Shown one piece after another: positions 6,601-59,699 of a stretch of DNA of 64,000 nt; the first letter of the stretch is position 1; every line of letters begins with the position of its first letter. Location: contig NC_092582.1 of the NCBI RefSeq assembly GCF_037975245.1, forward strand, positions 5,620,001-5,684,000, in the 5' to 3' direction. Under the pieces are notes generated by a model. The model searched no databases, was not told the DNA's origin, and saw only the letters and a program-made list of their open reading frames with translations. This DNA comes from Apostichopus japonicus (lineage: Eukaryota > Echinodermata > Holothuroidea > Aspidochirotida > Stichopodidae). The position numbers and the translations under genes are program-made.

Positions 6601-9600
6601 AATTTTTTGATGGAATTCTTATGGAGATGGGTGAACAAAGGAGAAGATATTTGTTTGATGGTATACTGTATAAATAGAATCCAATGTACTTTATGAATTA
6701 ATCATGTTACTGTTGTTTCCCTACAGGGTGCTGTTGCAGTGTCGTTCACTTTCTTTGGTACTTCATTCTTGTTCCTAGTCTCCCATTTCACATGTAAGTG
6801 TCCATAAAATTGATCAATTCCATATCTTTTCCCCCATTTTATCCCCATTTTTCAGTGAGCTGTTAAATCTCCATGGGTTTACCTGAAATAATTAGGCTAT
6901 TTGAAGAAATGATGGTCTGTGTGTCTTTTTTACTACAAAATGTGTTTGCTTGGAGCATTTCAAATAAAAATCATTCCTTGAATTTTGTGCAACTATGTAG
7001 CCATTTGCTGACATCAAGTTACATTTAAATGATCGGAATTGGACACGTAGCAAATGGCTGTCCTGCTGAGTTATTCTGTTTAATAATGACAATATTTGGC
7101 TGCATTGCTACTATCTGATAGACGCAGGATATTAATGGACAATTCAACTTGGCATTGAATATTTATGTAAAAGAGCAATAGAGATGACAGAATGGTGAGT
7201 CCAGTCCTACAGTAACATTGATCCGAGTATTTACATGCAACTACAAAAGAGTAAATTGCTTTAAAAATTAACAGATTTAACAAGTAAAGATGAAAATGGT
7301 GAGGAAAAGGATCTTTCTGAATATGTATCTCAAAAACAGACAAACTGAAGTCAAATCTTTAATGAGTGGGAGAGGGGGGGGGTGGGGATAGGATCGGGAG
7401 GGCTGACTGAGGGATGCAGTGACCTCTGGGTCAAGGACTGGTCAAGTAGTTTCAATGAGCAGATGACTCCTTTGATCAACAACATACGTACTATGTGTCG
7501 GAATATTTAAACGCGTATGGAGGAAAATAATCATAGCTAGCTTAAAACTTGATATGTTTGGTTGTACTTGAAATTTATTTCCTTTTCTCTTTTTCCTGTT
7601 ATTTTCTACCACAGCTGGCGATGATAATCTTTCAAATCGAATTCAAGATTATGCTAAAATCATCCGATCTCTAGATCTACCTATCAAGGTACCTGCTACC
7701 AGGAAATATAATGTGGATAAAGGTCAGTCATTATATGTGTGTGTGTTGATGAGGAGTTCATCCTTATATCATTTTGTATGGCAAAAGGTGTGAATTTTTA
7801 AATCTGGTGATATTTTGTGAATGTGTCTGGCAACGACAGAGTTAATTGATCCCATCTCGGAAATTGAGCTGATAAGTGGTATCGTGTTTCTTTAAAAATA
7901 TTGAAATTGTCTATGCAATATTATATTTCTCAAAGGAAGTTGCATTTTGATATAAATTCCAGATACAGTATGGTGTCTTAAAAGGGACATAGGGGAAAAA
8001 AATAAGTGTCCCCAAATCTCAAAATTTTGACTTTCTATCTCAATTTGTTTCCTTTCCTATGTCCCTATTAAGCCACCGTAATACAGAGATAGGCAGCTAA
8101 GCAAACTTTTCCAATTGTGTCACATTTCAAGATGATTTTAAGTAAGGGATGGTTTAACCAGTCCAAATAGGTAACATTTAATCAACGATATCTGCCAGCA
8201 GAGATTATCCTGTTAATGTAAAGGCATGTAAAGATGTTTAACCCTCGACCACTGTCATTTCTTAGTTATGTTTTGTTGTGTTCACTCTCCCATATGATGT
8301 TGCCCTTTCAGATGACATCACCTCAAGATTCGATGCAGTCTTCTGGTGCGGGGATTTCAACTTCCGACTGACGGAATCCAGAGCAAAGATTGAAAATTGG
8401 GCTCAGCAGCTGAAACACGGCAACGAGGAAGACTTTAACATTCTCCTGCAGCACGATCAACTCAGGAAGACGATGACAAAGAGTAAGTTGAGATGTAAAG
8501 TATATCAGGATGGAAAAAAATGCGTTTATTTATTTATCTGTATCACAAAATGATGTCACAGGAGATTACGAGAGTGAAGCTAGTTCCTTAGATGAGACAT
8601 TGTCATAGTGAACACGGTTACATTATTACAGATTTCTAGGTTTATAAAATTAGCATCAAGAAAACTCAATAATGACCCTCTGAAGACATGGATTGTTTCT
8701 TGTATGCTAAAAATCAAATGACCTAAGAATGGTGGGGGTGGGGGGGGATCAGGGTGAACTTTTCACTGTATAAATGGGAATTGTGTTTCTTGTTGATTCA
8801 GATTAGTATTTCTGATTTTTTTTTTTAGAGGGATTTATTCTTTGTATACTAGCAAATGATGGTTTTTTTTATTGTTGATGTTGCAAGGTTTTGTTCTACC
8901 AATTTTTATGCTTAATGAAAATGAATATTTTCTTTGAAAAAGAAATCTGAAAATTTCAAGACTAGTCAGGTAAATTACCATTATAAATTTGTTACTTTCC
9001 ATAGTGTGATTCCTGCAAAGAGCTGTGTCTGTGGATGTAGGATATGTGTGCCAGGTAACAGGGGTGGGTATGGTGAACAGGCGGTCTGTATGGACAGAGA
9101 CACTTTAAAGGACACATCGTTGTATATTTGAACACCACAGTTATTTTGACCCAGCAGTGATGTGTGTGTGTGTGGGGGGACATGCATGACCGAAGCTGCA
9201 TGTATGTGTGTGTGTATGTTACTCTTTTTACACATACATAATTACGGAAATACGATATCAAACTTGAGCATCTGTTTGATGAGGTTCTAAGGTTTGCGTC
9301 ATTCTGTTTTGTTGATATGGATAATTATATTTCATATATATCTTTGAAATTACATGGGAAGGAAAACAATGGGTGTATTGTTATCACAAACTGATTGTTT
9401 TCTTCAGGTTACGACAATAAAGTTGAATATACAGTCCAAGGTGAGGTTGGATCATTTAAACTGCCCTGTTGCTTAAACTCCTCCTCTCGTTGGCCTTCTA
9501 TTTTGCTTGTCATGGATATTTAAATAGCTTCCCCTCCATTTGCTCATGCCATTTTTACTCAATCCCTACATACTGAGTATGCCAAAAACTGATTCACAAT

Positions 9601-12600
9601 AATATTTCCTTTCATTATAGCTGACCATGGCATGCACCATTTGCTTGATTCGTCACATTCCACGTAATATAGCTAGATATCAAATGATAAATTATCAGCA
9701 TGTGAATCCTACCTTTAGTAAAAAGTTAATCTTGCTATGTTTTTTTGTTATTTTCATCGCTGATTGATTAATGCTTTACTCACCAACTGCAAACAGATCA
9801 CGGTGAAACATTAATTCTAAATATAACTTCAGGTATAACAAGTTGAAGTTCAAGGTTGCTAGTCTTCTCCCCCTAGCTAGGGCATCAAAAGTTATTAACC
9901 GTAAACATTAGGTTGGAAACGATGATGGTTCATATCAGTTGGCAGGTGATACTGTTTTTTTTATTATGTAACATACAAATTACTGTAACTTTCATTCAGG
10001 TAGCATCGAGTGTTCCATGATCGCCCCCCTCCCCTACCTGGTTCATCCACTCAGCCCCCCCCCATCCCACCCCCTTAAGTAATTAACACATCATGGATTC
10101 CTTTGAAAGGAGGTTTTTGAATATAAATCATGGTTATGTCCGGTTTTACGTTCATTCTGTTTTATAAAATCATACCATGGTTAGAAAATGCAACATACTG
10201 TGAATGTAGGATTACACAACCATTTTTGCTGAAGGAATATTGCAGTGTTTACATGTTTTGAACCACATTGCATTTTGTGGTTCAAAGTAATGCTGACCAT
10301 GGCAACATCAAAAGGTCAAAGGTGTGGACCAGATTCAGTAGTTGAAAGGTTAAGTTAGACTCTGAATGAACTGTTTGTCAAAAGCTCACTCACTCGTAGT
10401 AACATAAAGACCATCGCTATGTCAGTGTACAGTTTTGTCGGTGCTATTGGGTGTGTCCTGATCTGCCAATATCGTAGGCATCCTGCTAACACAGCATGTT
10501 GCAGTATGAAAACCAATGAACATCTTTCTACTCATTAAATGCTGATTCAGGTACATTTATATCTCTAATACATTTATCTCCTGTTTGCATGGAAAGATTA
10601 ATACACTGTTTATTTAAAGAGGTACTGTTGGCATTTAACACAATGTGGTGGAGAAATACCAAGTGCATTCTATAGCATTAGTGAAAATAAGCAATGTTTG
10701 ACAGGTCGTCGAGAATGATTATTTTCAAAAGTTTGTAAATTAATACTGCTGCATGAAGAAGCTTAAAGAAAATGCTTAAAAAGATGTGCCGTATGCTGTT
10801 AATGCAGGATCAGCCTGTATGAATAGTAGAGTATGTGGTGGAGTCTTGTAAAGAAAAAAGAATTGTTTGTTTGGCTAAAATTGATTCAAAACAGTATCCC
10901 ATTGTTTGCAATTTCCTTAAAGGTATGTATTTTAGATCCTCCTGCAAGCAGGAACTCGCGAAGGAGCCCCATTGGCTTATCAAAGCCGCAAGCTGACCGA
11001 AGTCAGTCTCTTAGATTCATATTTAACGTCCATGATTATGAATTGTCAATTGTCAACAAGTCTGTAACTGGACAACATACATTAATCTTGGAGTGATTCG
11101 AACTCGGGAACTTAGGATTGGGGAGGCACAAGCGTTAACCACTGAGCTAACACTCATATAAGTTACGGATATGAGAGCACACTGGTAATATGGAATTAAC
11201 CTAACCCTATGCAGCATGACAGCTTTATGCATGCATGGAAGACAACTTGTTCCTCACTTACACAATAGTTTACAATATCACAAGTTATTTACCCGAACAA
11301 CTTCCCCACCATCTCATGTCTTTTAAAATCATTGTTCACGCTAAGTACCCTGCATGGCAAATTCATCAAAATAGTTAAGCTTTGAATTGCTGCAATACAG
11401 ACAGTTGTTGATGATATCTGATTGAATTGCTAAATCTTGACTGTGTACATAATATAGTAATCATCAAGTCATTATATGCTCTTGCCAACAATTTGGCTAT
11501 AACCAGGGTAATGAAGGTGGGAGCAGGGGGGGGGGGGGGAGGGGGTGACTCATCCCTAAATCTTCAAGAGATCCTTGTTACATTGGACTGCTCATCTCTT
11601 GACTGACACATGAATTTTCATCTTCCATTTCCTTAGATTCCATCTTTAAGGGTTTCCAGGAGGGAGAGATCAACTTTCTACCGACCTACAAGTATAATCC
11701 TGGAGAAGATGTCTTTGATACCAGCTCCAAGGCCAGGATACCATCTTATACCGTACGTAATCTTACAGCAGTGTCTATCTGTCTGTCTGTCCGTCACATG
11801 TAGTACCACAATGGTATATTTCATACGTCGTAAAAAGATCTACATTAGAGTCAGGCCCTTAGACCTGCAAACCTAGCTGTATGTTGGCATAGCACTTGAT
11901 ATGTGTATCATAATTCAGATGGATAGTGTGCCCTGATGTGAGGCCCAGCAGTAGACCCACAGAAAAGAAACACTTTATCATGGAGTTTTTTTCTTATAAA
12001 TCATATTGTATATATGGGCTCATATATCAGTGTATGGGTTGAAAAGTGAAATATGCTTTAGTGGTAAGTACTAAGTATAGTATCAGAAGCAACCATTTGG
12101 CAGCCATACACATTCTCCTTTTTCGTAACGAATAAGTTTCCGATAATAGTTTTGATCAATTTTTGGTATCACATAGAGTTTCCAATCTGTGTTTAAATTG
12201 GCAAGTTTATGTTGATACTCTTCATTTTCATCTTCAGGATCGAGTTCTCTACAAACCACGTAAATCTGGGGAGGTCAATGTACTATACTACAATTCTTGT
12301 CCAACCATCAAATGCTCAGACCATCGTCCTGTTTATGGTATCTACGAAGTCACAATACGTCCCGGCAGAGATGAGTAAGGAGGATTCGTTCGTTCTTATT
12401 ATTTATATCCGATCTCTCCAAATAGTTTGTCCGTTAAACGTTAGTCCGTGATCTTAAAGAGCAAACGTGTACAACTTAATAATAATAATACTATTTGATT
12501 TTATATAGGGCTTTACACCAGCGATAGGTCTCAAAGCGCTTTACAGATGTTATATTACCCATGGTCAATGATAACCTGTCCCAGAGACAATCCCTCCAGT

Positions 12601-21000: not shown

Positions 21001-24000
21001 TTAACCGCAGGCTTGGAAATAGTCTATAAATGTGTTTTTGTGTGTTTTATTGGACATTGTGCCTTTTCCTTGAATATTAAAAGCATAAAATATTTTTCAA
21101 AAATCAGTTATTCAAAGCATTCTGTAAGCTTCTCTCATGTACTGTTTTTATATATATTTTGTATGGCATCGAAGCTACTTAAACAATAATTGTGTTTTCA
21201 CTCTTTTATTTAGTTTATCTAACTAAATGGTTCGCTCAAAACCCTACAGAAATGGCAGATTTATTGATTTTAATATTAATATTGTTATCAACATTTACAT
21301 TAAAACTCATTCTAGGTTTTCCAAAGTCATACGATTGTTTGTCAGCATAATATGAATTACCAGTTACATCTATGGTGATCGGGAAAGAGGAACCAAACAT
21401 AGCTTCTTTAGTTTTTTATATATCTGTGTCTAAATGCCCCGCCCACCCCTTTCTTCTCATTTTGTGCAAATCTTCAGATCAACTGCACAAACCCTTTCAC
21501 AAAAGCAAGCCGAAAGTTTTATATCCGAACAAGCAGCTCTACTCCAGAATGAGGATCCCACTGCCCCTCCTCCAGATGTATTGCAAGAGCAGATCGGTAC
21601 AGTTTGTGAGAGGAACCCTCACCTGGCAGAGGTGGTAGGTACACACACTTCTTGTGTTCTGCAAGAAGGAGTTAATTGTCTGCTGTCAGTTTACTGAAAG
21701 CAAAAGAGCAGCTTTTGATTTGTTATTTTGATGAATGGGGGGGTTAATACGAATAGAAGCGGAGGTCAGTCAAGGTAGACTTGAGTTCAACTGTATCCTC
21801 TTGTGTTCCTCTATGTTCTGCAAGGTGAAGTTAGTGTCTGCTGTCAGTTGACTGAAAGCAAAAGAGCAGCTTTTGATTTGTTATTTTGATGAATGGAGGG
21901 GTTAGAACCAATATAAGCGGAGGTCAGTGAAGGTGGACTTAAGTTCAACTGTATCCTCTTGTGTAATCGTGAAGTACTAACTTCCTACTCAACTGATTTG
22001 GTTTGCAATTCAAAAGAAAGGGAAACTGGAAACAATGAAAACCTATTTTGACAGATTTGACCTTAGAAAATCAGTTCTAATGTGAGCTTGATTGCAGTTG
22101 TTAATTAAATAAAATGAAATGAAAGAAATATTATTCATCAACAAATTTATTCAAACTGAAATTAAATAATTATGAATACATTTGTTAAAGTCCTAGTACA
22201 TGTGGATTAAAGTGGTTTGGTCAATGACAGTCCTGGTTTCAGCTACTGTAGAAATCTGGATGATTTTCAACTGAAACAGCTTTAAAGGTGCAGGTAGTTA
22301 GAAACCATGTTGATTTTTGTTTAAAGTTTGACTTCAATTCTCTTAAATGTTGGGTTTTTAAACAGATCTAATTTGGTTTGCTTTCTTCCTACTTCCACAG
22401 CATTATTTAACATTCCTGAATTGTCTCCGATTGAATGAATTCTGCGGCGCCGTCCATAGCCTTCACAAATACTTTGATCAACTCACGCAGAAGAAGACTA
22501 GATCTAATGAATCTGAGAGCATGAACGCCAATGAAGAATGGACCCACAGCTTCAGATATGCCGCCCTCAACATGGCTAGCCTTCATTTCAGGCTCGGTCA
22601 CACGTAAGTGTAAACGGGACATTCTTTGGTATCCGTGGTTACAAGCATTTGAAGACAACATGCCCTTAGACTGCCTTAGTCTTTCTGAAGATCATCATTG
22701 ATGGTAGTTTGGCATCATAGTGAAATGTCTTTACAAGAGTGATAAAGGTGTCTGTTTGTCAGTTTTGTCTGTTTTGGGTCATATTAATCAATTTTTATCC
22801 ACTTGACTATAATGTCCATAGACACAATGGATTTGTATATATTTGGTACATCAGGGTAATATATCAATATATAACAACATTACTGGTGGGGTGACCATGC
22901 CAAAAAGAGCTAAAACTTCTAGTTCATTCTTCATACAGATGCAGGGAGTATATCCTACAAAGGGTGTCACTAGGAATATAGGGAAAATGCTTTCATTTTA
23001 TAGGTAGAATCTGTTTCAGTGCTTGGCTATTTTTTTGTAGTTTGTCTCTCTCTGATAACAATTTCTCAAGTGTTACGCTTCCATATTTCTTGCCCATTCA
23101 TCACTTTCCTCTTCCTCGAAGAAATACAATCGAGCGCTTTTTTATTGTTTCTGGCATTATTTTATTGTTTTATAATCGTTAGCAACGAAGCAGTGTTGGC
23201 GTTGAGGGAAGCTATCCAGAAGGCCCAGGAAGCCAATGATCATGTTTGCTTACAACATGCAATGGTGAGTAAAAGATGATTTGTCGCCTTAGTACAGAGA
23301 GATTAAGTGGCATTGAATAATCAATAATAGTACCAATGAAGACACAGTGTAATGTGTGCAAATAAATACCGGAGAGGGTGACTTGTTTAAGTTTATATCT
23401 TACACAACATAGAACAACTTACAGCCAATGCTTGAAACTGTCTCTTACCATACATATCAAATGAAATATATTTTCCTCATCTTAAGTCTGTGGTCTTCTA
23501 GTTCAATAGACAAGTTACAGGATAATGTATATTTTTGTCTCAAACACAACTAATAATTTGATGGAATATTTTCATCTAATTCAGTTTTCATTTCTGTTAC
23601 CAGCCAGATGTTTACCTTAGAGGATAGGTCACGTCTTCTATAGAGAAGAAATCTTTTGAAAACCAGTTGCGAGGTTTTCCCTTCAGAGAACATTATAGCC
23701 GTACTAGTCACTGAGCTACTGTACGTATAGGAAAATCACGGTTAGAAAGATTTCAATCTTGAAGATGAAATAGACACTTAGACTCCTGCCTTAAAGAGAC
23801 TACATGTATGTTTAATTGACAGTTTGAAGGCATCAACCCCACAGAAATAGCAGATTTATTGATTTTAATACTAATATTGCTATCAACATTTACATTAAAG
23901 TGGGTGATAACTTATAAATTTGATTACATTTACAGAGTTGGATGTACAGGATGAGTCCTGATGAGGAGGTTGACTTAGGACATACCATAGCTAAATCAGA

Positions 24001-27000
24001 GGAGCTTAATTTACCGGTAAGAATCTTTCCAAGTTATTACAAAAGTTTTTTCTCCCCTACGGGGGGTTGTTTGTCTTCCAGTATTTGAGTGGTATCGGTC
24101 AAGTGCTTATAATGAGACGTAATGCATACATGACGCCGCACCAATGGGTGAAAAACCCCATCTCGTTATCTCACTTCTAGGTGTTCTGTAAGAAAAAGTT
24201 AGCTGAGTGGGTAAAAGGGAAGGGAGGGAAGTTTTTCATATAATGGTATTCCTTTGATGACTTTATCATGCATGGAAAACTACAGCAATTTTGTTCCTTT
24301 CTCCCAGTATTTTCTTATATTTATTTTTATAATTTCTTGTATTTATTTTTTATAATTTTGCAGTATTTAACTTCACTTGGAGTCCAGACTCTTGCCAAAC
24401 AGAAGGCACTTACGTTTGTGAAGCCATTTGAGTAAGTTTTATTTCTTTCGTTCTTAAGATATTAAGTGGTTTTCTGGATGGTACCTATGTGCCTTTACCA
24501 TCGTAATAATGTAATCTTTTGTTAGGTTTTGCAGTTATTTGAGTATGGGGTGGGGGAGGGGTTACAAGACTTGATTCTGAGGTCACTGTTTCACTGAAAA
24601 TGTTCAGTGACCCTTCCTACCTGGTGTTATGGCCCTGGTGAGGGAGGAATTAGGAATTATTGTTGTATGAATGCCAAGTTTTATGAAAGTCCACCATTTC
24701 TCTTTCGCTAGAATTTTTGAATACCTTTCACGTAGCGATGCTTTGAATTGTCAACACCAACAACAGCAGCTGGTGTCTGTTAGCCAAGCACAGCAGTCTA
24801 GTCTCTGGAATATCTATGGTTATAGGTGAGCTAAAAGACCTCTTTAATAGTATCTATCTGACCTTGTTATATCTATGGTTATAACTTTTGTCTGTTACTC
24901 AATTATGGCAGTCTAGTGTCTGGAATATCTATGGTTATTGGTGAGCCTAAGCACCACTTAAATAGTCACTGTCCATTGATCTAACAAACTACATCTTGTT
25001 AAATCTACGGTTATAACTTTTGTCTGTTACTCAGTCATGGCAATCTAGCCTCTAGATATCTATGGTTTGTAGGTGAGCCTAAGCACCTCATTAATAGTCA
25101 CTGTCCATTGATCTAACAAACTACATCTTGTTATATCTATGGTTATAGCTGTTGTTGGTTAGTCAAGTCTCTGGAATATCTATGGTTATTGGTGAGCCTA
25201 AGCACCTCTAGTCACTGTCTATTGATATAGGAAACTACATCTTGTTATCTATGGTTATGACTGGTGTCTGTTAACATTCATGTTTCCATGCAGGTTCATA
25301 TTGAGTTTTGGGGTAACAGTTCTTGTTGATTCAGTCATATTCTAGGAACCCTCCTCTCCCTTTGCAGTTATGTTAAATTTAGACTGATGTACTTTTTACT
25401 ATTTTCAGGTTCCTGTACCTATTTATGTACCACTTTTGCTGATTCAGTCACCTAGTAGGACCCCTCTCCCTTTGCAGTTATTTATGATTTCTAATGTAAA
25501 CTTGTTACTATTTTCAGGTTCCTGTACCTATTTATGTATCCACATTTAGCTGATTCAGTCACATTCTAGAAACCCTCTCCCTTTGCAGTTGTTAACAATT
25601 GAGACTGATGTACTTTTTACAATTTTCAGGTTACTGTCCCTGTAAAAACCACTTCTTGTTGATTCAGTCACCTACTAGGAACCCTCTCCCTTTGCAGTTA
25701 TTTATGATTTCTAATGTAAACTTGTTACTATTTTCAGGTTCCTGTACCTATTTATGTAGCCACATTTAGCTGATTCAGTCACATTCTAGAAACCCTCTCC
25801 CTTTGCAGTTGTTTACAATTTCTGATGTATACTTGTTACTATTTTCAGGTTCCTGTACCTATTTATGTAAACACTTCTTGTTGATTCAGTGACATACTAT
25901 AAACCCTCTCCCTTTGCAGTTATTTACAATTTCTGATGTATACTTGTTACTATTTTCAGGTTCCTGTACCTATTTAAGTAACCACGTTTTGCTGATTCAG
26001 TCACATACAATGAACCCTCTCCCTTTGCAGTTATTTACAATTGAGACTGAAGTACCTGTTACTATTTTCGGGTTCTTGTACCTATTAATGTAACCACATT
26101 TTGCTGATTCAGTCACTTTCTAGAAACCCTCTCCCTTTGCAGTTGTTTACAATTTCTGATGTACTTTTTACAATTTTCAGGTTACTGTCCCTGTAAAAAC
26201 CACTTTTTGTTGATTCAGTTACATACTAGGAACCCTCTCCCTTTGCAGTTATTTACAGTTTAGACTGATGTACTTATTTTCGGGTTCCTGTACCTATTAA
26301 TGTAACCACATTTAGCTGATTCAGTCACATACTATGAACCCTACCTGTTGACAGTTATTTACATTTTCTGACTCCTTTCAACGTTACAGGTTCATGTCCA
26401 GTCTGTGTGACCATTTCCTGTTGAATTCTGTCACATCGGAGCCGTCCAGATCATCTTCCAACCAAATCCCAGACACCGAATCATTTTGCCTCACCGTCTG
26501 TCACCAGGCACGGCTTCATTTTAACGCAGGAGAGCTGGATGTAGCCAGAGATCTCATCCAGTGTGCCAAGGAGAGTTTATCAACATTAACAGAACATTCA
26601 AAGGTTAAACACTATCGATACTTTCTTCTAGTACATTCAAATATGCAAATATATGGGAGCAAAAGGTGTTTGTTTTTGCGGCCTGTGAGATGTTTCAAGG
26701 AAAAGAAAAATATCAATCTATTTTACATCATCACAAAAAGCAAGCTAGCTGCTTAGAATTTATCGGCACTAATGATGCTGTCAGGTAGGCCTATTATCGC
26801 CATTAATTATCAGCTGTACTGTATTGACATTATGTATTTGTGAATACAGATTTAGTACACACACCTATTGCTTGAAAGTCCTCGGAATCAACAGCAGGTC
26901 ATTGGTTAGGTGCAACCCAGGCAATTTTTCACTCCTTATGTCTGGCCCATTCATTCAAAAAGGTTGCCCACCCCTGTTCTAGTACATTCAAATATGCAAA

Positions 27001-30000
27001 TATACGGGAGCAGAAAGTTTAGTTGAAAAAAAAAAAAAATAGTTTAAATATTTAGCCAACTACAGAACTAATCCTGAATGTCACTGAGCAGCTGTAATAT
27101 GTTTGCAGTCCTTTTTTTCTGTTTCACTTCCTGCAAACCCTTCCCAAACAGAGTCAAAGTCAGTATCTGGGTTTTGTACAGCTGTTTCCCAGCCCTTGCA
27201 AGGTGGACTCAGATCCATGTCCAACCCTGAACCCTACAACATTGGTGTCAAACCCAGGAGAAGGGAGACTTTTTGATTGGACAAAGGATTATTTTATATT
27301 TCATTTTTTTTTATTATTATTATTTACAGATTTGGATGCAGTGCGAGCAAGAGTTTGCATTCCAACATTCAATCTTACAAGGTAAATTCTCAGAGGCGAA
27401 GAAAGCTGTCGAGAATTTGTCTGCAATTAACCAGTCAGAGACGACGTACTGGTAGGTTCGATCTCATGTAGATTTGATGATTTCGTTCTGTCATGGGCAG
27501 AGCAATTTATTACTATAATTTGTAATGATCATGACAGATTAATCACAGCTTTAAGCAAGGCACTGCAAACATTTGGTCTAATGTCGTAAAACTCTAGTCT
27601 TACTTTCAAGCTGAATCGCAAGCTGTGATTATCTCTCTTTGTTCCTAGCGTTAAAGAATATGGTGCTTTAGTAAAATAGTCAAGAACAAATTGTGTGAAT
27701 CAACGGTGCTACTTTCTGTAGAAAAGGTCAAGAATTAACAACAAATATTTTTGTGGGTTACAGAAATCAAAGAGAGAGAACCGCTTTGGGGGGTCAATCA
27801 TTGAGAACCTGTCCCTGATGAAGACTCTGCTAAGAACTTCAGACCCTGTAACAATTATAAAAAGTATCTAAAATTAAACATAATAATAATAATATTCAGG
27901 TACAATATTCATTAAACTTAGATTAGTTTTGTAGTTATTTTTTTTTTTCTTTTTTTTTTCACCTTGAAATTCCTTGATTTTTCATGTTGATAAATTTCCC
28001 TTGATCCTGCAGTAATTGTATCTTACTGGCAATGCAAGGCAAGGTTACCATGGCAACAGAGATATTGTGCAATCTCATCCAGAAATGCCATAAAGAAGTC
28101 AGTGAACATAGCATAGAGTTCCATGCAAAGTAAGTTTACAACTTCATACAACATGAAATTCTGCTACCATTTTATTTTGGAGTTTGGAGAGGGGGGGGGG
28201 TTGCTAAAACACTTAAAACTGAAATTGGATAACCACCTGACATGATGTAAGCAAAAAGCTATCTGTCTCAGAACTCCCATATACATGTGCGACTTTTCAG
28301 TGTCGTATTATTTATCGTTCTTGATGTTTGTATTTTTCCCTGTTTTTTTTTCATTATTTAATAAAGAGAAACATTTTCTAGTGAAGAGAAGAAAATATTG
28401 AATTCAATTCATTTTGAAATTTCAATTGTCAAATCTACTTTTCAATGTGTGCCGATATCATGAACCATGAGTGGTTGTGGTCCGTAGTCATTTTATATCA
28501 TGCTGACCTATCCCTGAGTCAATCAGTGAGGGGTTGTGTTGTATGCACTCATTATTGATTCTTGCCATTTAAGTTGCGTATTTTTCTGCATGCTGTCTTG
28601 CATGATAATATCTCTCCTATCACATATATTAAGCCTGTACAATTATGGAATCATTGCTTATGAACTAGAGACTCCTGTTTTAAGTTTCCTACCTGACCTC
28701 ATTAAACCTCCTTTTTGCTGCATACAGAGAGAAACAGTCTTGGATAACTATAAGATTTATATTTGAGAAGATGGGATTAAAGATATGTCTGATTGGACAT
28801 TTGGACATTTTATTATTCAAAAAGCAGTAGACATGATATTGATTTTGACCTCCTCATGTTGACCCAAGGAGGGGGGGTGGTATGATGAATCTACACTACA
28901 TGTTAAGAGAAGGCTGGAATATTGAGGACATTCCAACATTTGCAGAGAAGAATTTTGATATAATCACAAAGAGGAACTCATGTGCATTACAGATGAGAGT
29001 TTCCTCTGTTAAAATCATAAAGCATTATAATGTTTGTTTAGGTACTAGGGTTAGAAACAGGTCACTTAATAGTTTATTTATTCACTTGTCTGTTGCTAAT
29101 AGGCCTTAGCTTAGGGTATAAATATTCCCAGGGAACGATCCTTGAGCATAGTAATACCTTTGTCACATACCATGACCCATTTACAAGTAACTGTCAGTTT
29201 GTTGCCTAGCAACCTCTGCTGTAGTTGGTGCTACTGTGTCCCCATGTTGTCTCTGCTATTTTCAAATTACAACAGGTGTTTGTTATTGCTGTCCTCCATA
29301 TACCTGATGCAGGGAGAACCAACCTCAGCCATTCCTCATCTCTTGGAGTGTGTGGCACTCTGCCAACAGCATTACCAAGCATACATGTTAGCAGTCAGCA
29401 CAGCACATGTTGCTTATGCACAGGTGTGTAGTAATAAATTGTAAAAGGTCTTTGTCATGGTAAAAGTTAGGCTATACTGTGACAGTTAATAGTTTTTTTC
29501 TTTCTTGTTGTCATATTTGGTTATATTTTTAATATTAACCATTAAAGAGGCCAGTGTCCATGAACACAAAGACATGCAAATGTCAAGAGCTGGAGAAGGA
29601 TGGGGGGGGGGGGGGGGGGTAGAGTGGAAGGTGGGAGCTGGTGATGAAGGGGAGTGGAAATGGTTCCCCTCATTGCATAATGGTGAACATTATCGTGTGG
29701 TAATTTATGGGAGTGTAAAATGCCCTTTGAGCTTTTGATTCCTCTAGTAAGTGAAATTCTAGTACTCCCACAACACAGGGGATCCAAACTTGTTGGCCGG
29801 CCACGCAGGGTTATCAAAGGACTCTTTAAAGAGATAGTATTATGTTAATCTTTGTATCTTGCTAATCTGCAAACAGTTCCAACCGAAAAGTGCCACTCTC
29901 CGTCTGCGTTGATGTAGTTTCTTTACCTTGCTCATAAAGCTCATAGTGGAAATAATAGCAAATAAAATGCAATGTTAGTAGAAAGTAACCAGGTTGTTGA

Positions 30001-33000
30001 CTTTGAAGTTTTTTAATCTTTGTATCTTGCTAATCTGCAAACAGTTTTAGCTGAAGAGTGCAATCTCTGTCTGCTTTAATGTAGTTTCTTTACCTTGTTC
30101 AAGCTATGTGCTCATAAAGTTCATAGTGGAAATAATAGCTCATAAAATGCAATGTTAGGCTTGAAACCTGGATCAATTGCCTTTAAAATAACCAGGTTGT
30201 TGACTTGGAAGTTTTTTGTCCATGCTGCAATTCTTTTGGAACACTCGACATCAGTTTATGACTACCATGATTCGGTAAGAACAAAAATTCCTGTAGTGAG
30301 AGATGTTACAAAATAAAACCAGCTATTCTACAGGTCTCTTTTGGGTCAAGTTAAAGTTTACAAGAACGGTTTTATAACGCCACCAGTTTTTATCATTATT
30401 CTTTAGTTTCTGATGAAGATGCCAGAGAAAGCATTGGCTCTTCTGGAAGAAGTTTTACCTCAAGTGTTAGCCAATGGTAAGTCGGGTAGATACAGGAGTT
30501 CTTCTTCTCACTCATGATATAATGTAGTGGTGTTAGTTAGCAGACCAGGAAGGCTTCAGACAGCTGTAGCCATCTTTACCTCCCCCCACCCCACCCCCAC
30601 CCCCATATCAAACATCCCAACCCCACATCAAACATCCCAGCCCTTTCATGCCTTAGAGTAGAGCTTACTTTTGGTAATCTTAAACCAGTGTGATGAATCC
30701 GATCACACTCATTGTGTTTGGACAAAGAAAATTCTACGACCTTGTAAGTAAACAGGTACAGATTTGACATGTACTGTAGAATTTATTATTGCTTCCGTTT
30801 TGATTGCTATAAAAGATTTTGTCAACCAGAATTCAGATACTGATACTTAATTTTTTGTCATTTCCCTGGCAGTAACTTTTTGCTACCTGTTGGTTCTGCA
30901 ATAGATGAATTAAGTTGATGAAATATATGTAACTGGAAGGGACTTTTCTTTTCTTTTGTAAAGGATCTCTGTATACTCAGTGCTGTGTGCAGTTTCTGGT
31001 AGTGCAATGCAGGTGTCAGGTGACCAGAACAGATGAAGATAGAAAGTCAGGTGATTACTTTTATTTGCTATGGTATTGTGTATTAATTGCTATATATTGT
31101 ATGCTATAGTGTATGCTGCTATGTACATGAAGTATTGTGTGCAATGTCTTGTAGTGCAATGCAGATGTCAGGTGACCAGAACAGATGGAGATAAAATGCC
31201 AGATGATTACATTTATTTGCTGTGATAACAAAGTCAGTTGATCACTGATTCATTCAAATTGAGACAAAGCTTTAACTTTAATTTGGCCACTTTACTGTAA
31301 AAGTAAAAGATGTTTTTTGATTGAGCAGAGAAGAAGCGAGAAGGAAGCACAGAATGAATCCCTTCGGCGGCGTTATCATCATGTGCCTCTAGGTAGCTAA
31401 ATCAACCATTACACTAAAGGGTGCTTAGATCAGAAAATTCACTTTATGTCCTGCCATTCAACCACAGCTGTCCACAATTGTTTGGGATTTATTGTACATC
31501 TATGACAATTGTTATTGATAAAGTCAGTTAACAGGTCATGCAGGGATAATGGAAGGTTATGAAGAGGACAAGACAGGTCGCTTGAACCTCCCTCGAGCTG
31601 GGCCAAGTAAATTCACTTTAGCCTCCTAGAGCTGTCTTCTCTGGCTTTCACAGAGCTAACAAGATTTAGATCCTTTGGGTAATAGTCAAAATTGAAGGTG
31701 ATGGAAGGAAATGTGTTCGGGTAAAAATTATATTGGGGGTGTTGTAACTTTCACAGTATAGCTTCAGCTATTTCACATATTGCAGATTCTATAGAAGTAA
31801 GATGAAGGGAAAGAAGGGGATTAGGAGGGGATGGGCAGGAAAAGGAGGCATAGGCAAAGACAAGGCTATAGCTTAAGAAGGAATACTCCAGTTAGACTTC
31901 AGTCCACTTTTCCACCATTCATGTAACTAGCCAGCCTTCACCTTCTGAGAATAGTTCACCCTTCCACAAATAAATACAATCTGAATAAGCTTTCAATCTT
32001 TCCAGCAGTCTGTTTGCTCAATTCCCTTTATTGGTACTTTTAACAGCTGTCTACATCCATCTCTGCTGTGTGTCCATAACTTAAATATTCCTGTCCTCCC
32101 TTCTGTGACCATTACATTCCTAGCTGACCTCAGGGGAAAGTCCTTGTAGTGTCCAAGAAGCCAAAATAACGACTCATATCTTATTTTCATGGTAGTATTG
32201 GTAGCATCTTCAAGTGCTAAAATTTGTTTGGAAGATGGTTGTATTTCCTCCATCCTGATAACCGAGCCTGCATGCAAATCTGATTAGCTGGTTGTGCCCT
32301 ACACGTTGTTGCAGTGGGTTCCCTTCATTGCTCCCACCTCCACATGTCAACCCTATGTGGTATAATGATGTTGGTTGTTGCGCCCTGTGATCTGAGAAAC
32401 ATACAAACATAAAATGATGATATTAAATCTGTAGCACACTGTGAAGTCAGAGTATCAACCCTTATGCAACACGTTACCCCTAACCTAGAGTCCTACATTA
32501 AAGGGACTAATTAGTGACACCCTATATTCTACGTATCCTATCAAAAAAAAAAGGGGGGAAAGATTTTTGAATACCTTTGCAATTTATTCACAGTTGAATG
32601 TTAACCATTATCTTCACATAGACTCATGGTGAGGTCAACTGAGCGAGACAGTCTTTTATTCCATTCCCTGGATTTTGGTATCGTCAAGGGACAATTCTTT
32701 CTGCTTTATTTTATAGACCTCTAACACAGCCTGTTGTCTACATAGTGTTGACTTTGCAAACACTGAACAAATAACCAAACACTCTTTATATTACCAAACA
32801 CTATTTATATCACCAAACACTATTTATATGACCAAAAAAGTTTTATCTATTTCCAAACAGTTGATTTAAGTCTCATATTGGATTGGTGAATGGTGGAAGT
32901 TTTTCCCTGTTTCATACCTCTCATATGTTTCCATTTGACCTGAAGGAAGTACACCAGGGAGCACCTGTGAATGTTTTCTCTTCCTTCCAAATCCTTCCTC

Positions 33001-34396: not shown

Positions 34397-37190
34397 ATCA
34401 GGGGTGGGCAACCTTTTTGAATGAATGGGCCAGATATAAGGAGTGAAAAATTGACTGGGCCACACCTTACCAACGACTTGCTGTTGATTTTAAACCTTTG
34501 ATTCTGAGGACTTTCAAGCAATAGGTGTGTGTACTTAATCTGTATTCACAAAAACATTATGTCAATACAGTTGCAGTCTAAACTAAAGTTGTTGCTGCTG
34601 TTTTACCACGTTGTTGCTCAAACTCACGTTGTTATTTTAACTTCCGTTGTCTAAACATACGTCGTTGTCTAAACTTACGTTGTTGCTATTGGCGCTGTTC
34701 AAAATTGCTCAACCGCGTAATGTAAACCAGAATGCAAAATGCATTGAGGTTTCGATGACTTCAGTACACTAGAAAGGTGTTAGTATAAGCAGAACTAGCT
34801 GTTACTATAGAAATGGCCTGAACCACCATTTTGATACATTAACACTACGGCATGATAAACACAGGTCAGTCTACTGTATGTGGCTATACACACCTGCACC
34901 AAAAACAATAGGGGTCTTGGAGGTCCAAGTCCATTTGGAGTCACCAAACGCAAACTTGTGGAAACCTTGTTTTATAAGCTACCGTATCTCCCACAGCCAG
35001 CCTATCAGATAACATGTGCGTTAGTACAACTCATACGAATAGGAGGCTGCACGGTAAACAACTTTTAAAATGTTATAATGTTATACTTATTGGCTATGCA
35101 TATACGCTGTGAATGTCGGAAATCAAGTACAACGTCGAGTGTCTAGACAAAGTACCAGCATAAGAATACTGCACTTTTAAACTGATTTCATTGAGCCCCT
35201 CCAACAATGTGTAGAGATAATCTGGGAATGTCGGTAATTAAGTAAAACGAGTGTCGAGACAAAATGCCAGCATAAAATACTGTACTTAAAATTGAATTAT
35301 TGAACCATTACATGATGTCTGGGTATGTTGTGAATGTCGGCAATCAAGTAAAACGAATGACAGTAATATTACTAAAGACAAATGTTTTCGTCCCGATCGA
35401 ACACCAATTGCGTTTATGATATAACCTATACTTTTACTAGTGTTTATAGTTGAGAAGATGCGATCTTATCACTGCCTGTACTTTGTGAATGCTCTACACA
35501 ATATATATATGGCGGATGCCATCCAGTGCCCTAGCTTCGTTGTTTTACAAGGGCGGCCGTCCGACCTTCATTTCGCCTGCCCTGCCACTCTTTCCTCCTC
35601 TCCAACTCCGTATATAGTACCTCGATGCTTTGACCTGCAGCGATTTCACCAGCAACCCCAACTCTTCAAATATCCCCGCAAATGTAGTGTGCATATCTCG
35701 CTAAATTCCACGCAATTTGTATTAGGCCTGTTCAAACTTCGGAGTTTCAACTGCACATGCGCATATCCTGAAAATTTGTGGAGAAAAGATCATAACCTTA
35801 CCTACAACACATAGCCTTAGTCAAAACTCGAGTGTATCTTGGATGATTCGTTTCTTGCATAACATGTTAGCGGGTTTTTTGGTCTAAAATGCTGAGCGAG
35901 GTTTGTGTATATTCCATTTACAACACAATCCCTTTCGCAAATCGAAACTCCGAACTGGATTGGTGTTACGAATGAACTTGCTTGGCGGGTTTAGTAAACT
36001 AGTTCTGTGTGTCATATTGCCTACGTACTTCAATACTGTGCCCCTCTTGTTATTCACGAAGCGCAGACTACATCCAACCATAGAGCAACTGATCCAACAT
36101 TTACCCTGCATGCATTCTTTTCAGTATTTGGAAACAACCAACTCCACGAAAATTATAGTATTTAAATAACATTTTTACGCAATGTCGAAACTTCAATGAC
36201 TACTTTTGACGATGTATGACTGCAGTAGTTTATGCACACGAATTAGTGTTGCACCAGAATCATGACTTGAAGCACGTGGTCAAAGGGACCGCAAAAATTT
36301 ACGCAAGTTTGCAACGAAGAATTAACTGTGGTATAAATGCACATTTTACATTATCAGCTCTCAAAAGGGAGAGAACATAACATACTGTGAGATTTAAAGT
36401 CCTTTTCAGTATCAGAGATGTTGTGGTAGCTTCCCGCAAAATTCACAGATTGTCTCAACTCATAACTTTCTGTGATAAAACAATTATTCAAATATGACAT
36501 TAACAATATAAATGTAAATAACGTCCTCGGAGTTGTATCAACTATCATGTAAATATCGTTAAAAACGTGATTTTGTTCGACAAATCAGGTTGTTAAGGAT
36601 ACTTACATGGCTGTTGCTACAAATCCGGCATGACATTAACGATAACCCCCCCCCTTTCGCGTTACATAGTTAAACCATCATACTTTGCGTTCATTGAGCA
36701 CTGAAGATGCAAGCATGTTTGCAGACAATGGGTAAGGGACTATTAACCAAACAAATCTCGGGAAATTTTAGAAAACATCATTGGCCGTATTTAGCATGAA
36801 AATCTCTGTAATAGATATGTTGTTAGCACTGCACGGAAGCAACTTGCGGTTGATTGTTATAATTTTTTTGAAAAGAAAGAATGTTCGTTCACAATGTGTT
36901 CACAACGGAACCTTAGATAGCAACGAAAGTGTAGACATCAACGTGAGTTTAGACATCAACCGTAAGTTAACTTAGCAACGAAAGTTTTAGACATCAACGT
37001 GAGTTTAGACATCAACCGTAAGGTTTATAAATCAACGTGAGTTTAGAAATTAAGGCGCGTTTAGTCGTCGACGTGACTTTAGACATCAACGTAAGTTTAG
37101 ACATCAACGAACAACAGCAACATGGTAAACTAGCAGCAACAGCTTTAGTTTAGACAGCAACAAACTTAGTTTAGGCAACGAAATACGGTT
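34397..37190. mobile_element. Large non-autonomous hAT-like element with subterminal arrays
   Basis: The left end is CAGGGGTGGGCAACC; the right side ends near GGTTGCCC (37184-37191), which looks truncated. Inside both ends stand inverted blocks: 'gtctaaactaaagttgttgct' type sequence at about 34580-34690 and its complement at about 36900-37165. The latter includes some ten units of the 'acatcaacgtgagttta' kind. The middle has short frames (for example 35440-35814, 124 codons) with no recognised similarity and no transposase. The left end matches 26811-26976. I could not find a clean target duplication because the right end is damaged. Confidence 0.6.
35108..35375 (+). repeat. Three diverged tandem copies, unit about 115 bp
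   Basis: The phrase 'gaatgtcgg.aat.aagta.aacg' recurs near 35110, 35228 and 35333, followed in the first two by 'tcgag..agacaaa.t.ccagcataa'. Lies inside the 34397-37190 element. Confidence 0.65.
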
Positions 37191-47600: not shown

Positions 47601-50600
47601 ATTGTACTGTGTGACATCTACAAGTACAACAGGAAACCAGAAGGTAAAGTACTAACAAAGGCAAAACAGGATGATTATATGGTCATTATTGCTTCCTACC
47701 ACATTTGTACATGTTTATCAATTAGACTTTCTACGATGACAAATATGGGGTTAATATTTCTTTAATAATGTGATGTGACCGTAGTCAGGAGGTTAAGCTG
47801 CTTTGTGCTAACTTATTAACTTAACCACATGACAGGTTGAGTAAATGACTAATTGGTCGATTGTTCCTATTGTATGCAGGGCTGACTTCTGTCAATTATC
47901 CACATATATCAATTATCCAATGTGACTCCATTGTCTTGGGGAACTATTTTATACAAAGTTTGGGTCAATACCTAGAAAACGTGTTTTGAAGTGAACGTAT
48001 AATGGGATGTGAGGACAGTTCCCAAAGGAAAGACAGATAGAGATACAATCAATGAACGACTTCCTGAAGGACAGGTCTCGTGCCATTTACGGAATTGAAG
48101 TTTGAATGTTCCTTCACCAAACAGGAGCACACTTGAACAGGCGAGATCCTGTCACCTCCACCCGTATCTGAGACCTCTTGAACATGAAAATGTAAACCAT
48201 GTTGTTGAATGCTTTGATCCAGTGACAAGTGACAGTTAAATATATTGCATGAATTCTGTGATCTGTGGATGCAGTCTACATTCCACAAATGATTCAGTAT
48301 ACTTCACCTAGGTGCAAGCTTGTCGTTTGCCCTCGGTGAGCAGAGAATATTTGTGTACTTTGGTGCATACCAATACTGAGGTAGAAATCTTGTATAATAA
48401 CTGCTCTGCTGCAACATGGTTCAATGTTTGAAGCAATTTGATCATTTTGTCAATCGAACAAGATAAAAAAGTCTTTCCTTTTGAAGGTTTATAAGAAAAA
48501 GCAGTGTGGAACTTTGAAAATCACTGTCACAAATAACCCTTCCCTCCTCTCCCTGTCCCTCCTCCTCTCCAGTCTCTCCCCCTCCTCTCCCTGTCTCCCC
48601 TCCTTCCTTTCCTTCCCCAGTTTTTAACCTGTTGCTGATTCTGTTACAGTCATATATAAATGCTTTTCTTGATCTTCTTTTATATATCTAGATAAGAACT
48701 TCAGATATTACTGCAATCAAGTTATGTCAAAGCCAGAAGTTGCATCGACCCATCCATGGTTTGGCATCGAACAAGAATACACATTCCTCTCCCCTGACGG
48801 TCATCCATTTGGCTGGCCCAAGCTTGGTTACCCTGGACCCCAAGGTACGTTTTTAAACTTTTATGCCTGTTGTCTTGTTCGTATAGTTGATTGCTGTTTA
48901 TTATTTGTTGTGGTTACAGTGTTATATGATAAATAGTTTCTGTTGCTTTCATCTGTGATATCGTACCCTTGAAATGTATGTCTGTAATGTGTAAACGTGC
49001 GAGACGGTTGAAATATATAGCTTCCATTGATTTGGTTTTGTTCCAGGTCCATACTACTGTGGTGTTGGTGCTGATAAGGTCCACGGTAGAGCTATCGTTG
49101 AGGCTCACTACAGAGCATGTCTGTACGCTGGAGTCAAGATTGCAGGGACCAACGCAGAAGTCATGCCGGCCCAGTGGGAGTTCCAAGTGGGTCCATGTGA
49201 AGGTATTGAGATGGGTGATCACCTGTGGATGGCCAGATTCCTCCTACACAGAGTAGCCGAAGACTTTGGTGTTGTGGTGTCCTTGGACCCCAAGCCCATG
49301 GCAGGGGATTGGAATGGTGCAGGAGCTCACTGCAACTTTAGTACCCAAGCCATGCGGGATGAGAACGGCATCGTGTAAGTATTCACAAAAGGAGTACATA
49401 ACAACCTCATTTGTAGGTTTGGGGGTCACTGTTGTCACTTTGTTTACCCCTGTTATCGGCAGTATAGTGCACAATGTGTGAATCACCCTGTTATGGATAA
49501 TAACAAATTGGTGTTGTCAGTAGTTTTATGCATTTGACCCACCCTTATAAATTATTCAAATAATGCACACGTAACCCACAGCTTTTCTTGGGTAATATGG
49601 TGCTTTCCTACTCGTATCTCTCAGGTTCATGTACTCATTTCACAAACACTTCCCATTGGCTAATGCAGTGATAAACCACAGTATGTATCCCACATGCTTA
49701 TGCAGTTATGTCCCGCGCATAAACCACAGGGTTATGGATGTTGTAAATCTCGACAAGTGGCTAATAATAAGAGGTGGTAGCTACAAGTAAGTAGCATGTT
49801 TCCTTAGGAAGTATCCACCACAGAATCAAATGGATAGAGATTGTAGTTAAACTAAAGCACTTTCTTCAAAAGTGCAAAGGAATCTTCTCGCATGTTCATA
49901 ATTATCGTGTATGTACATAACTAGAAAACTATGATTTCTGTGACTGAACTTGATGTGTATCACTGAATGGATTATTGAGCAAAGCAACCGCAAAATGGGC
50001 TGATGGCTGAATATATATTCTATTTCTATAGTTTTCAGCAGCACTGGAGTAACTGCTTTGAACCTAACAGTGTGTACATTGTTAGTATGTAGGATGACAA
50101 GGCTTGTATGATGAAACCATTATGCTCAAACACTTACTGGTGGTATTTGCAACAGACTGCAGTAGGTGATTGTTAATAGTAGATAGGGTCTTGCTGAAAA
50201 AGGATGGATGGGGTTACGATCTGTTTTTAATTAAAGCCAATGTTCCTTCTTCTTGATACAGAGATATCAAAGAGGCTGTGAAGAAGTTTGCTAAGAGGCA
50301 CGACAAACACATCTTCGCCTACGATCCCAACCAAGGTAAAGACAACGCCAGACGACTCACGGGGCTCCATGAAACTTCCAGCTTGGGTGACTTTAGTTCC
50401 GGTGTGGCAAACAGAGGTGCCAGCATTAGAATACCAAGACATGTAAGTTGTTATTAGCTCTTCATAGTAAGGAATTGTTACAGAAATTTCACAGAATCAT
50501 TAATCTATATACTTCTTTATATTACTACCATATATTTCCTCCTTGAGGGAATCTTCTTTTTGATGACAACATTCACCCTGCTGTTGCCAAATGCATTTCT

Positions 50601-57419: not shown

Positions 57420-58442
57420 TAACCTATAGATTAAAATACTGAACCAGCATAAACAACTGAAATGATGATCAAATTCAATGAACTGCTTTAACTCGAGATT
57501 CCGTCACCCGACACTACAGGACATGTTCTTCCGGCTAATTGATTTATAACCGGTGATTTATTCGATTATGAAAAAACATACCTAAAATCCAATAAAGAGG
57601 ATATTTCGCACAGGCTGTGCAAATAGTATTTTTAATTTAGTGTTTCAGATGCCAACCAGCTTGCAATTAGTACCATATTTTTCTCTGGGTTTATTTGTAC
57701 TTCTGATGAGCTATGATTAATACCCTGTGTGATAATCTGTCAACCAATGCAGAGGGAAATGGTAATTAATTTTCTTCTAACTTCTCAGGGAGTTTTATGG
57801 TGTTAAAGTTGACAAATGTTTCGTAATTATTAGTTCTCCACCTTCGATAACCGTCAAATTAGCCGATATAAACTAGTTAATAATTAAACCAATTTGTAAT
57901 TACAGAGCGTGGAAATACCAGAGAGGTTTTCTGTTTCTCACTTCAGTTTTAATATACTATTTAAGACTAATTTTGACCAGATTCTTTAGAGGGACTGTGC
58001 GGCTACATTGTCAAATTGTCATAAACTAAATCATCGTGATTAAAATCGGATGTGGATGGAATTCTTGGGATATATAGTTTCATATATGAATTGATCGTTT
58101 TTTTTTTCTTTTTTGTATATCCATGCGGCATTTCACTGTGTTTAATTATAACGTCGCTGTATATGACGTATAAACTACCAAAATCACATTGATTGTGGGT
58201 GTATACAGATCGGTTAAAAAAAAACATGGCTCATTTTGCTTTGGGGGATTGAAATAAGAAAACGTTCTTCAAAGAAGTAAGAAATATTCTTTCTCAAACA
58301 AGTAGTAGTATTGGTCGTTTGCGAAATTTCCTAATAGCGTACATCTTCAAGGCTTTTGGATCTACTGTAACGCAGGTCAAAGCTATTCTTGGGTACTGCC
58401 AATCTGTCGCCTTCCTCGCCACACCACCAACCACCTCCCAAA
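57420..58442. other. GPCR upstream region
   Basis: AT-rich with T-tracts. No TATA element or exon that I can defend. Confidence 0.5.
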
Positions 58443-59699
58443 ATGGAAGGAATGAATTTACTAGCTTCAACTGTCGTCACTTCAGATATATGCAAAATTA
58501 TCCACGATCATTCTGGATGGGTTCTCACTCTTCATGTGATGACGTTGGTGATTGGATGTGTGACGGTAGTGGATAACGGTGTCGTACTGGTCACCTACTT
58601 CAACAGTGAACGCATGAGTGAAATTCGAAGAACCATTCAGAATGTGTACATATTAAACTTAGCTATAGCCGATTTCGGGGTTGGGTTGTTGGTCATGATA
58701 CCATATGGACTCTATATGCTCACGGAGAGTACATGGTTACCACAATGGCTGCTCGTTGCATGGAACACGTGTGTGCAACTGTTACTATATCAGCGATTAT
58801 ATATGACTGTGTTGCTTAGCTTTGATCGATACATTATGGTATCGAATCCCGTTCGGTATCGGAGTAAAGAAACTACAAAACGGGCTGTGATTCGAAGTCT
58901 CCTGGTTTGGTTATTAAACTTTTGCGTGGCTACTGCAGCAGAGGTGTGGTTTTTGGTAGCAACCAGGAAGACCAACCATTGCGCAAGCGCAAGTAACCCA
59001 TGGCAACACTACCAGCTGTTTGGCCTGGGTATTGAATGGTTACTTCTGTTAGTGTTTATGGTCGATTTTTGTGTGCCATTTTTCTTTCTGGTGTTATTCA
59101 ACGCCTTGGTGTTCCTGAAGCTTCGTAAACGCGTTCGCAGAAGACTGAAAAATAGCGCAAATAATTTTCAACACATATCAAACAGTGAGGTCGTCGAAAG
59201 CAAAACGGAGCCACAGACAAAGGTTTCCGTCATATCGAGCGAACAAGTAAAAAAGGGTCACCGATATCAAATCGAGTCGCCGGCAAATCAGAACAACGAG
59301 AAACAAAAAACCGTTGAAAGGAAAAATGAAATAGCGCTTAATCAACGTTGTGCCAGTAGTTTAACAGATCTGCACGCTCAGATGAGCGCAACTGATCTAA
59401 CTACCTTCACTGAGAAATATATAGAGAAAAAAGCCAAGCAAGAGAACAAACGGCTTCGAGCAGCCGCCATTAAATTGCTCCTGTTTGTGATTGTTCTAGC
59501 GACGTGTTGGTTGCCATCTTTTATAATAGGGCTCGTTAGCGCCTTTACCGGATTCCCAGACAGTCTTCAGACAGTGGAAAAGGTTCTAACATTATTTCTT
59601 TGGTCGAATTCTGCGGTGGATCCGTTTCTGTACTTTGCGCTTAATCGTCACCTTCGAAGGGACATCCGTCGACAATTGCGCTGCAAACGCGGGAATTAA
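58443..59699 (+). CDS. Rhodopsin-class GPCR, intronless, orphan (amine-receptor-like)
   Basis: Seven-transmembrane receptor, 418 residues from ATG 58443 (context AAAATGG); an in-frame TTG further upstream is not a likely start. Landmarks: TM1 about 26-52 with N45 (1.50); TM2 about 67-90 with LNLAIAD and D77 (2.50); TM3 about 101-127 then DRY at 128-130; TM4 about 148-172; TM5 roughly 193-226; a basic, polar third loop of about 100 residues; TM6 343-368 with CWLP at 355-358; TM7 377-400 with DPFLY at 393-397. The long loop and TM6/TM7 recall the histamine/muscarinic branch, but position 3.32, Asp in amine receptors, is Val111, and the usual Cys at 3.25 is Leu104. The ligand is therefore unknown and amine binding is doubtful. 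Short N-terminus without signal peptide. Single-exon structure is typical of lineage-expanded receptors. Confidence 0.93.
   Translation: MEGMNLLASTVVTSDICKIIHDHSGWVLTLHVMTLVIGCVTVVDNGVVLVTYFNSERMSEIRRTIQNVYILNLAIADFGVGLLVMIPYGLYMLTESTWLPQWLLVAWNTCVQLLLYQRLYMTVLLSFDRYIMVSNPVRYRSKETTKRAVIRSLLVWLLNFCVATAAEVWFLVATRKTNHCASASNPWQHYQLFGLGIEWLLLLVFMVDFCVPFFFLVLFNALVFLKLRKRVRRRLKNSANNFQHISNSEVVESKTEPQTKVSVISSEQVKKGHRYQIESPANQNNEKQKTVERKNEIALNQRCASSLTDLHAQMSATDLTTFTEKYIEKKAKQENKRLRAAAIKLLLFVIVLATCWLPSFIIGLVSAFTGFPDSLQTVEKVLTLFLWSNSAVDPFLYFALNRHLRRDIRRQLRCKRGN

Follow-up and report, generated by a model that had tools for sequence, protein, structure and literature searches.

Tandem repeats that span exon–intron boundaries are known as mirages, and two accounts of amphioxus (PMC3087553 and PMC3902484), in the portions available, describe them in the Adh3, globin, PGBD5, and troponin C genes. 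Their units measure 150–160 bp in the globins, 60 and 108 bp in PGBD5, and 10–72 bp in Adh3, and data from reverse-transcription PCR or from Adh3, reported in the same portions, point to regular splicing. Two other systems come close. In a potato gene, according to the available part of PMC4974935, there is a single duplication across an intron–exon boundary, and in Caenorhabditis elegans the intronic minisatellite CeRep25B, a 24-base family with clusters on chromosomes III and II, is linked in the accessible text of PMC4039745 to alternative splicing. Here, we describe a further instance of the mirage kind, intron 9 of the ANAPC5 gene in a 64-kb stretch of DNA (the window, meaning the whole stretch analysed), the genes of which are animal genes. 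In this intron both exon edges have been multiplied and self-repeat covers 96% of the intron, whereas in the amphioxus accounts, as far as the portions seen extend, the acceptor and donor copies belong to different globin genes (BflGb6 and BflGb9).

The plus-strand ANAPC5 model, which was built by hand and provides the exon numbering used here, comprises 18 exons between 19215 and 34015 with 714 open codons, and the start of the gene lies outside it. The best match of the modelled protein in the PDB is 4ui9_O, subunit 5 of the APC/C (E = 3e-120; query residues 21–704 on chain residues 90–751), a chain that we take to be human, and Pfam recognises the families ANAPC5 and Apc5_N. The modelled exons are all 56–226 nt long. 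Intron 9 has 1564 nt, and is thus long but not the longest, the remaining 16 ANAPC5 introns having 280–1716 nt. The features of intron 9 and its flanks are as follows (a slash marks the exon–intron boundary).

24712–24825, plus strand: ANAPC5 exon 9 (114 nt; 714-codon model, PDB, Pfam), ending ...SLWNIYGY-R, with the authentic donor TAG/GTGAGC
24826–26389, plus strand: intron 9, 96% self-repeat
24768–25273, plus strand: donor-edge array, the authentic exon 9 tail followed by three decoys (exon-like tail, GGTGAGC, and intron start), with a Tandem Repeats Finder period of 132
24940, plus strand: last exon-like base of decoy donor 1, TTG/GTGAGC
25072, plus strand: last exon-like base of decoy donor 2, TAG/GTGAGC, a 9-mer identical to the authentic donor
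25191, plus strand: last exon-like base of decoy donor 3, TTG/GTGAGC
25280–26440 (left end approximate), plus strand: acceptor-edge array of ten decoys, continued in the same register by the authentic acceptor and the first bases of exon 10
25353–26250, plus strand: stretch with nine copies of CCTCTCCCTTTGCAGTT, the second of the two decoy acceptors in every core unit
26390–26603, plus strand: ANAPC5 exon 10 (214 nt), starting (R)FMSSLCDHF, with the authentic acceptor TTACAG/GTTCATG

The initial annotation had described this intron as made up almost entirely of tandem copies of the exon edge on either side (about three of the upstream exon end with GGTGAGC and about ten 110-bp copies of the downstream junction) and as presenting decoy 5' and 3' sites on both sides. 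All of this is borne out, and its coordinates for the intron are exact. Self-repeat covers 1509 of the 1564 bases, and when low-complexity sequence is masked the proportion is again 96%, as against 0–40% in the other 16 ANAPC5 introns. Tandem Repeats Finder delimits arrays at 24863–25273 (period 132), 25323–26369 (period 111), and 25327–26369 (period 220, a higher-order repeat). The exonic parts of the donor decoys at 24940, 25072, and 25191 are 81%, 74%, and 56% identical to the authentic exon 9 tail, the last copy carrying a deletion. On the acceptor side, the first exon-like bases of the units lie at 25294, 25409, 25518, 25630, 25738, 25849, 25960, 26072, 26181, 26284, and 26390, the last being authentic; these 11 anchors are spaced by 103–115 bp, and the authentic site falls in register, 106 bp past the last decoy. 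Each decoy unit consists of an acceptor and about 55 exon-10-like bases. GT is kept in all three decoy donors and AG in eight of the ten main decoy acceptors (it is lost at 26072 and 26284), while CTCTCCCTTTGCAG is found at nine of its ten expected places in the acceptor array. The second acceptor-like site, CCTCTCCCTTTGCAGTT, is CU-rich, measures 17 nt, has CAGTT at its end, and is invariant in the nine core units, in which other parts vary; at its tenth place, beside the authentic acceptor, the degenerate CCTACCTGTTGACAGTT is read instead.

Both arrays match their own exon edges beyond chance, as judged by sequence comparison with controls. For the donor side, a query confined to the final 70 nt of exon 9 finds the three copies in the intron with E = 1.6e-13, 2.9e-10, and 1.5e-7, together with shorter fragments. 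For the acceptor side, a plain BLAST search with exon 10 alone against intron 9 gives nothing significant (best E = 1.6; no match of at least 24 bits), and the similarity becomes visible by junction-spanning, consensus, or profile comparison. A query that spans the acceptor junction matches the intron with 70% identity from −38 to +47 (E = 3.9e-5), beside wholly intronic matches. The consensus of the nine core decoys aligns with the first 58 nt of exon 10 with a score of 37; dinucleotide shuffles score 10.5 ± 3.7 and none of 5000 reaches that value, nor does any of the 3650 AG-preceded 58-mers of the window, and the starts of the other 17 modelled exons score only 4–16. When the first 4 nt are dropped, one of 5000 shuffles reaches the consensus score. 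A profile of the nine decoy units, run over the masked window, has 26351–26440 as its top plus-strand match (E = 7.7e-5; the next has 0.064). The initial annotation had offered to give up its reading if the units resembled the exon edges in nothing but the splice motif; in the junction and shuffle comparisons the resemblance goes beyond it.

The two arrays meet between 25273 and 25294, so that four donors are followed by 11 acceptors, with the authentic sites outermost. The donor array does not resemble the acceptor array (best E = 0.86). This order and this dissimilarity favour two separate expansions over the copying of a whole short intron. Intron 9 also has no relative in the rest of the window at E = 1e-3.

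Three properties reported for mirages in amphioxus recur at this locus: (i) the repeat unit spans the exon–intron boundary, on the donor and the acceptor sides alike; (ii) AG or GT survives in many units, though not in every one; and (iii) a homogenised core is flanked by diverged end units, as described for BflGb6, where the units at the cluster boundary escape homogenisation (PMC3087553, available part). The core acceptor units U2–U10 have a mean identity of 80%, and the units at the ends of the array diverge from the core (63% for the authentic unit and 61% for U1). Judged by their alignment, the closely similar pairs U3/U5 (99%), U6/U7 (91%), and U4/U9 (90%) show repeat turnover. The unit lengths in this window, about 132, 110, and 52 bp (the last from a lipase-family gene described below), can be set beside those of the amphioxus mirages cited above. 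A further property of the mirage kind is length polymorphism between haplotypes or somatic instability; the analysis here covers a single sequence. What is available of PMC3087553 and PMC3902484 contains no account of a single intron in which copies of both edges have come to take up nearly the whole length. Within our partial coverage of the literature on boundary-spanning repeats, these two accounts are the only ones in which such arrays were recognised; the seen portion of a paper on amphioxus huntingtin (PMC2206037) mentions tandem repeat elements in scaffolds and places none at exon edges. If the window is not lancelet DNA, the range of mirages is extended. The potato duplication is likewise a tandem duplication of a segment that bears a splice signal, but it creates a new intron (PMC4974935, in part), whereas ANAPC5 intron 9 seems to be an existing intron that was lengthened with its ends unchanged. 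CeRep25B shares with intron 9 its nature as a minisatellite within introns and a possible influence on splicing; unlike in intron 9, copying of exon edges is not stated in the accessible text of PMC4039745.

We consider it probable that intron 9 is a two-sided mirage that grew by local tandem duplication and unequal exchange or slippage, was tolerated, and is spliced at its outer sites; expansion by edge copies, which the initial annotation had put forward as one option, is the likeliest reading. One short tandem duplication would have occurred across the donor edge and one across the acceptor edge, and unequal exchange or slippage would have multiplied the copies until both arrays filled the intron, with the original sites kept at the outer ends and still in use. 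Because the original sites are outermost, each extra copy would lie inside the intron and be spliced out with it, and continued splicing at the outer sites would make the duplications tolerable. The inner copies would drift and homogenise, and the outer copies would be constrained by the coding sequence. Splicing would stay on the outer pair probably mainly through exon definition, since the outer sites produce the shortest exons. Of this account, the two arrays, their likeness to the exon edges, the register, the homogenised core, and the reading-frame result are observed, while how the copies multiplied, whether they are neutral, and which sites splicing selects are inferred. On this reading, an intron can lengthen without mobile elements.

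Several points weigh against this explanation. The site matrices were built from the other 16 introns of ANAPC5, and hence from few sites, and the gene model behind the site tests was assembled by hand. By these matrices, the authentic donor scores 9.0 and the three decoys 7.8, 9.0, and 7.8, that is, about equally. The authentic acceptor scores only 1.3, above three of 16 native acceptors scored with each left out in turn, and seven of the ten main decoy acceptors score 7.6–9.0 (the one at 25294 scores 0.1). The initial annotation had regarded the additional pyrimidine-CAG of the 3' units as a strong acceptor: such decoy sites do exist, but they are middling, with scores of −1.6 to 4.9 in nine units and −5.9 beside the authentic site (native median, 4.9), and the TTTTCAG sites score higher. 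Even so, five of these ten second sites (2.1–4.9) outscore the authentic acceptor, and 12 of the 20 decoy acceptor positions do so in all. With decoy donors about as strong as the authentic donor and these 12 decoy acceptor positions stronger than the authentic acceptor, site strength does not account for the choice. The use of the outer sites is itself deduced from protein conservation and reading frame. Moreover, although the available part of the survey PMC9225289 reports that sites closest across the exon are favoured when the flanking introns are long, it describes the upstream preference of 3' sites under exon definition as significantly reduced, not as reversed. The survey pattern fits the presumed use of the outer pair without proving it. 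There is also a puzzle in the origin of the arrays. If the starting intron was short, as the near absence of anything but repeat suggests, it would have been recognised by intron definition, under which the inner copies should win; the first duplications should then have been harmful. Intron 9 is a natural test of spliceosome choice, with four near-equal donors and 19 AG-bearing acceptor-like positions, of which only the outermost pair leads to the protein, and how splicing bypasses decoy acceptors that score above the authentic one is the main question that it raises.

Exon-edge duplication is not confined to intron 9. A scan that covered all 17 modelled ANAPC5 introns detected it at both edges of intron 9 and at the donor edge of intron 15, and found none in the other 15 introns at the cut-offs used. 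A third example is in a lipase-family gene on the minus strand (PF00151; E = 4e-49).

30984–31227, plus strand: donor-edge duplication of ANAPC5 intron 15, in which 30984–31075 (exon 15 ends at 31019) is copied once at 31136–31227
62987–63745, minus strand: lipase-gene donor-edge array, 15 copies, spaced mostly by 52 bp, of a unit similar to the donor edge of the exon with its end at 63816 (ATCACAG/GTACG)

The intron 15 duplication is 92 nt long and 87% identical (E = 2.4e-30), and the donor 9-mer, CAG/GTGACC, is the same in both copies. The lipase array sits in an intron of 1417 nt. GT is kept in 14 of its 15 copies, seven of which score above the authentic donor with the ANAPC5 matrix; the match to the exon alone is modest (at best 19 nt at 89%, E = 7e-4), and across the junction it amounts to 43 nt at 79% (E = 7e-7). 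In the whole window, nine clusters of local direct duplication passed the filter, and five of them are inside ANAPC5. Wholly intronic local duplications occur in ANAPC5 introns 4 (21655–21964), 10 (26626–27018), and 13 (29845–30217).

The retention of good signals in the decoys, and the further donor-like sites inside intron 9 whose scores reach at least the lower quartile of the native ones (25157, 25263, 25629, and 26180), might suggest that alternative splice sites or exons are drawn from the arrays and alter the APC5 protein; a source of alternative exons was one possibility raised in the initial annotation. We paired the four donors with 21 acceptor positions (84 pairings, each of them a single junction between the two exons; two of the acceptors lack AG), and only the authentic pair, 24825 with 26390, is open to the normal end. 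None of the 83 others is, and use of the decoys would stretch exon 9 to 229–480 nt and exon 10 to 320–1310 nt. All three decoy donors precede the main decoy acceptors, so that any cassette exon would call for pairings beyond the 84 covered here. An alternative-exon role is accordingly very unlikely. The array could instead regulate splicing, its CU-rich block binding a repressor that keeps the inner sites silent or delays excision of the intron. PTB-like proteins are candidate repressors for such a block. In column permutations, an invariant run as long as CCTCTCCCTTTGCAGTT arose in six of 20000 trials, and the copy nearest the authentic acceptor is the degenerate one; against this, conserved blocks can arise by homogenisation alone, and the recent shared ancestry of the units means that the permutation overstates the conservation. 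We regard such a regulator as improbable. A broader proposal, in which introns of this lineage routinely grow from exon edges, exon definition hides the inner sites, and the CU block is kept as a silencer of the stronger decoys, is speculative and unlikely as a whole.

Intron 9 might also have been gained outright, when a single exonic segment with AGGT was duplicated in tandem. Models of this type are documented in the seen portions of PMC3443670, PMC4974935, and PMC3087553, and both edges of intron 9 do have exonic copies and AGGT. In its simple form, however, the model needs copies of a single segment at both ends, and neither the arrays, as noted above, nor exons 9 and 10 (best E = 1.4) resemble each other. 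The two ends of the intron are not recognisable copies of one segment, and old copies could have diverged past recognition. Such a gain therefore seems a poor candidate, and a variant of it in which a mirage becomes an intron is still conceivable. Three edge-related cases within one 64-kb window raise the further idea that a process coupled to splicing or transcription aims duplications at exon edges. In random placements of the five ANAPC5 clusters, however, a mean of 2.9 edge matches arose with whole spans and 1.0 with approximate single-unit spans, against two observed (P(≥2) = 0.93 and 0.27, respectively). These two randomisations, which are small, have little power with five clusters, and count intron 9 once although both of its edges are affected, give no support to exon edges as preferred targets of duplication, and we give aimed duplication very little credence. 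Finally, tandem arrays are prone to assembly errors, U3 and U5 are almost the same, and one amphioxus globin mirage seemed aberrantly assembled in the draft (PMC3087553, available part), so that the copy number of the array may be wrong. The core units nevertheless differ by 20% on average, and the edge similarity exceeds its controls; it is extremely unlikely that the entire structure is an assembly artefact or a chance similarity.

Across the window, the GC content ranges from 0.34 to 0.42, and searches with Rfam (gathering threshold) and ARAGORN gave no match. Outside the arrays described above, repeats of an 18-bp unit (CAACGTAAGT-like; reverse complement by eye) occur at 34608–34687 and 36913–37109, about 2.3 kb apart, and are perhaps the ends of a mobile element; in the second array the repeated CAACGTAAGT has the look of a decoy donor, at a place where the model has no exon. 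Two reading-frame pieces at 8266–8550 and 11603–11800 match Exo_endo_phos2 and may belong to an inositol-phosphatase-like gene. A glutamine synthetase exon lies at 49031–49375 (Pfam Gln-synt_C, E = 4e-12), and further exons of this gene are likely, by eye, at about 44.6–50.9 kb. A long reading frame at 58371–59696 encodes a rhodopsin-family receptor (Pfam 7tm_1, E = 3e-33).
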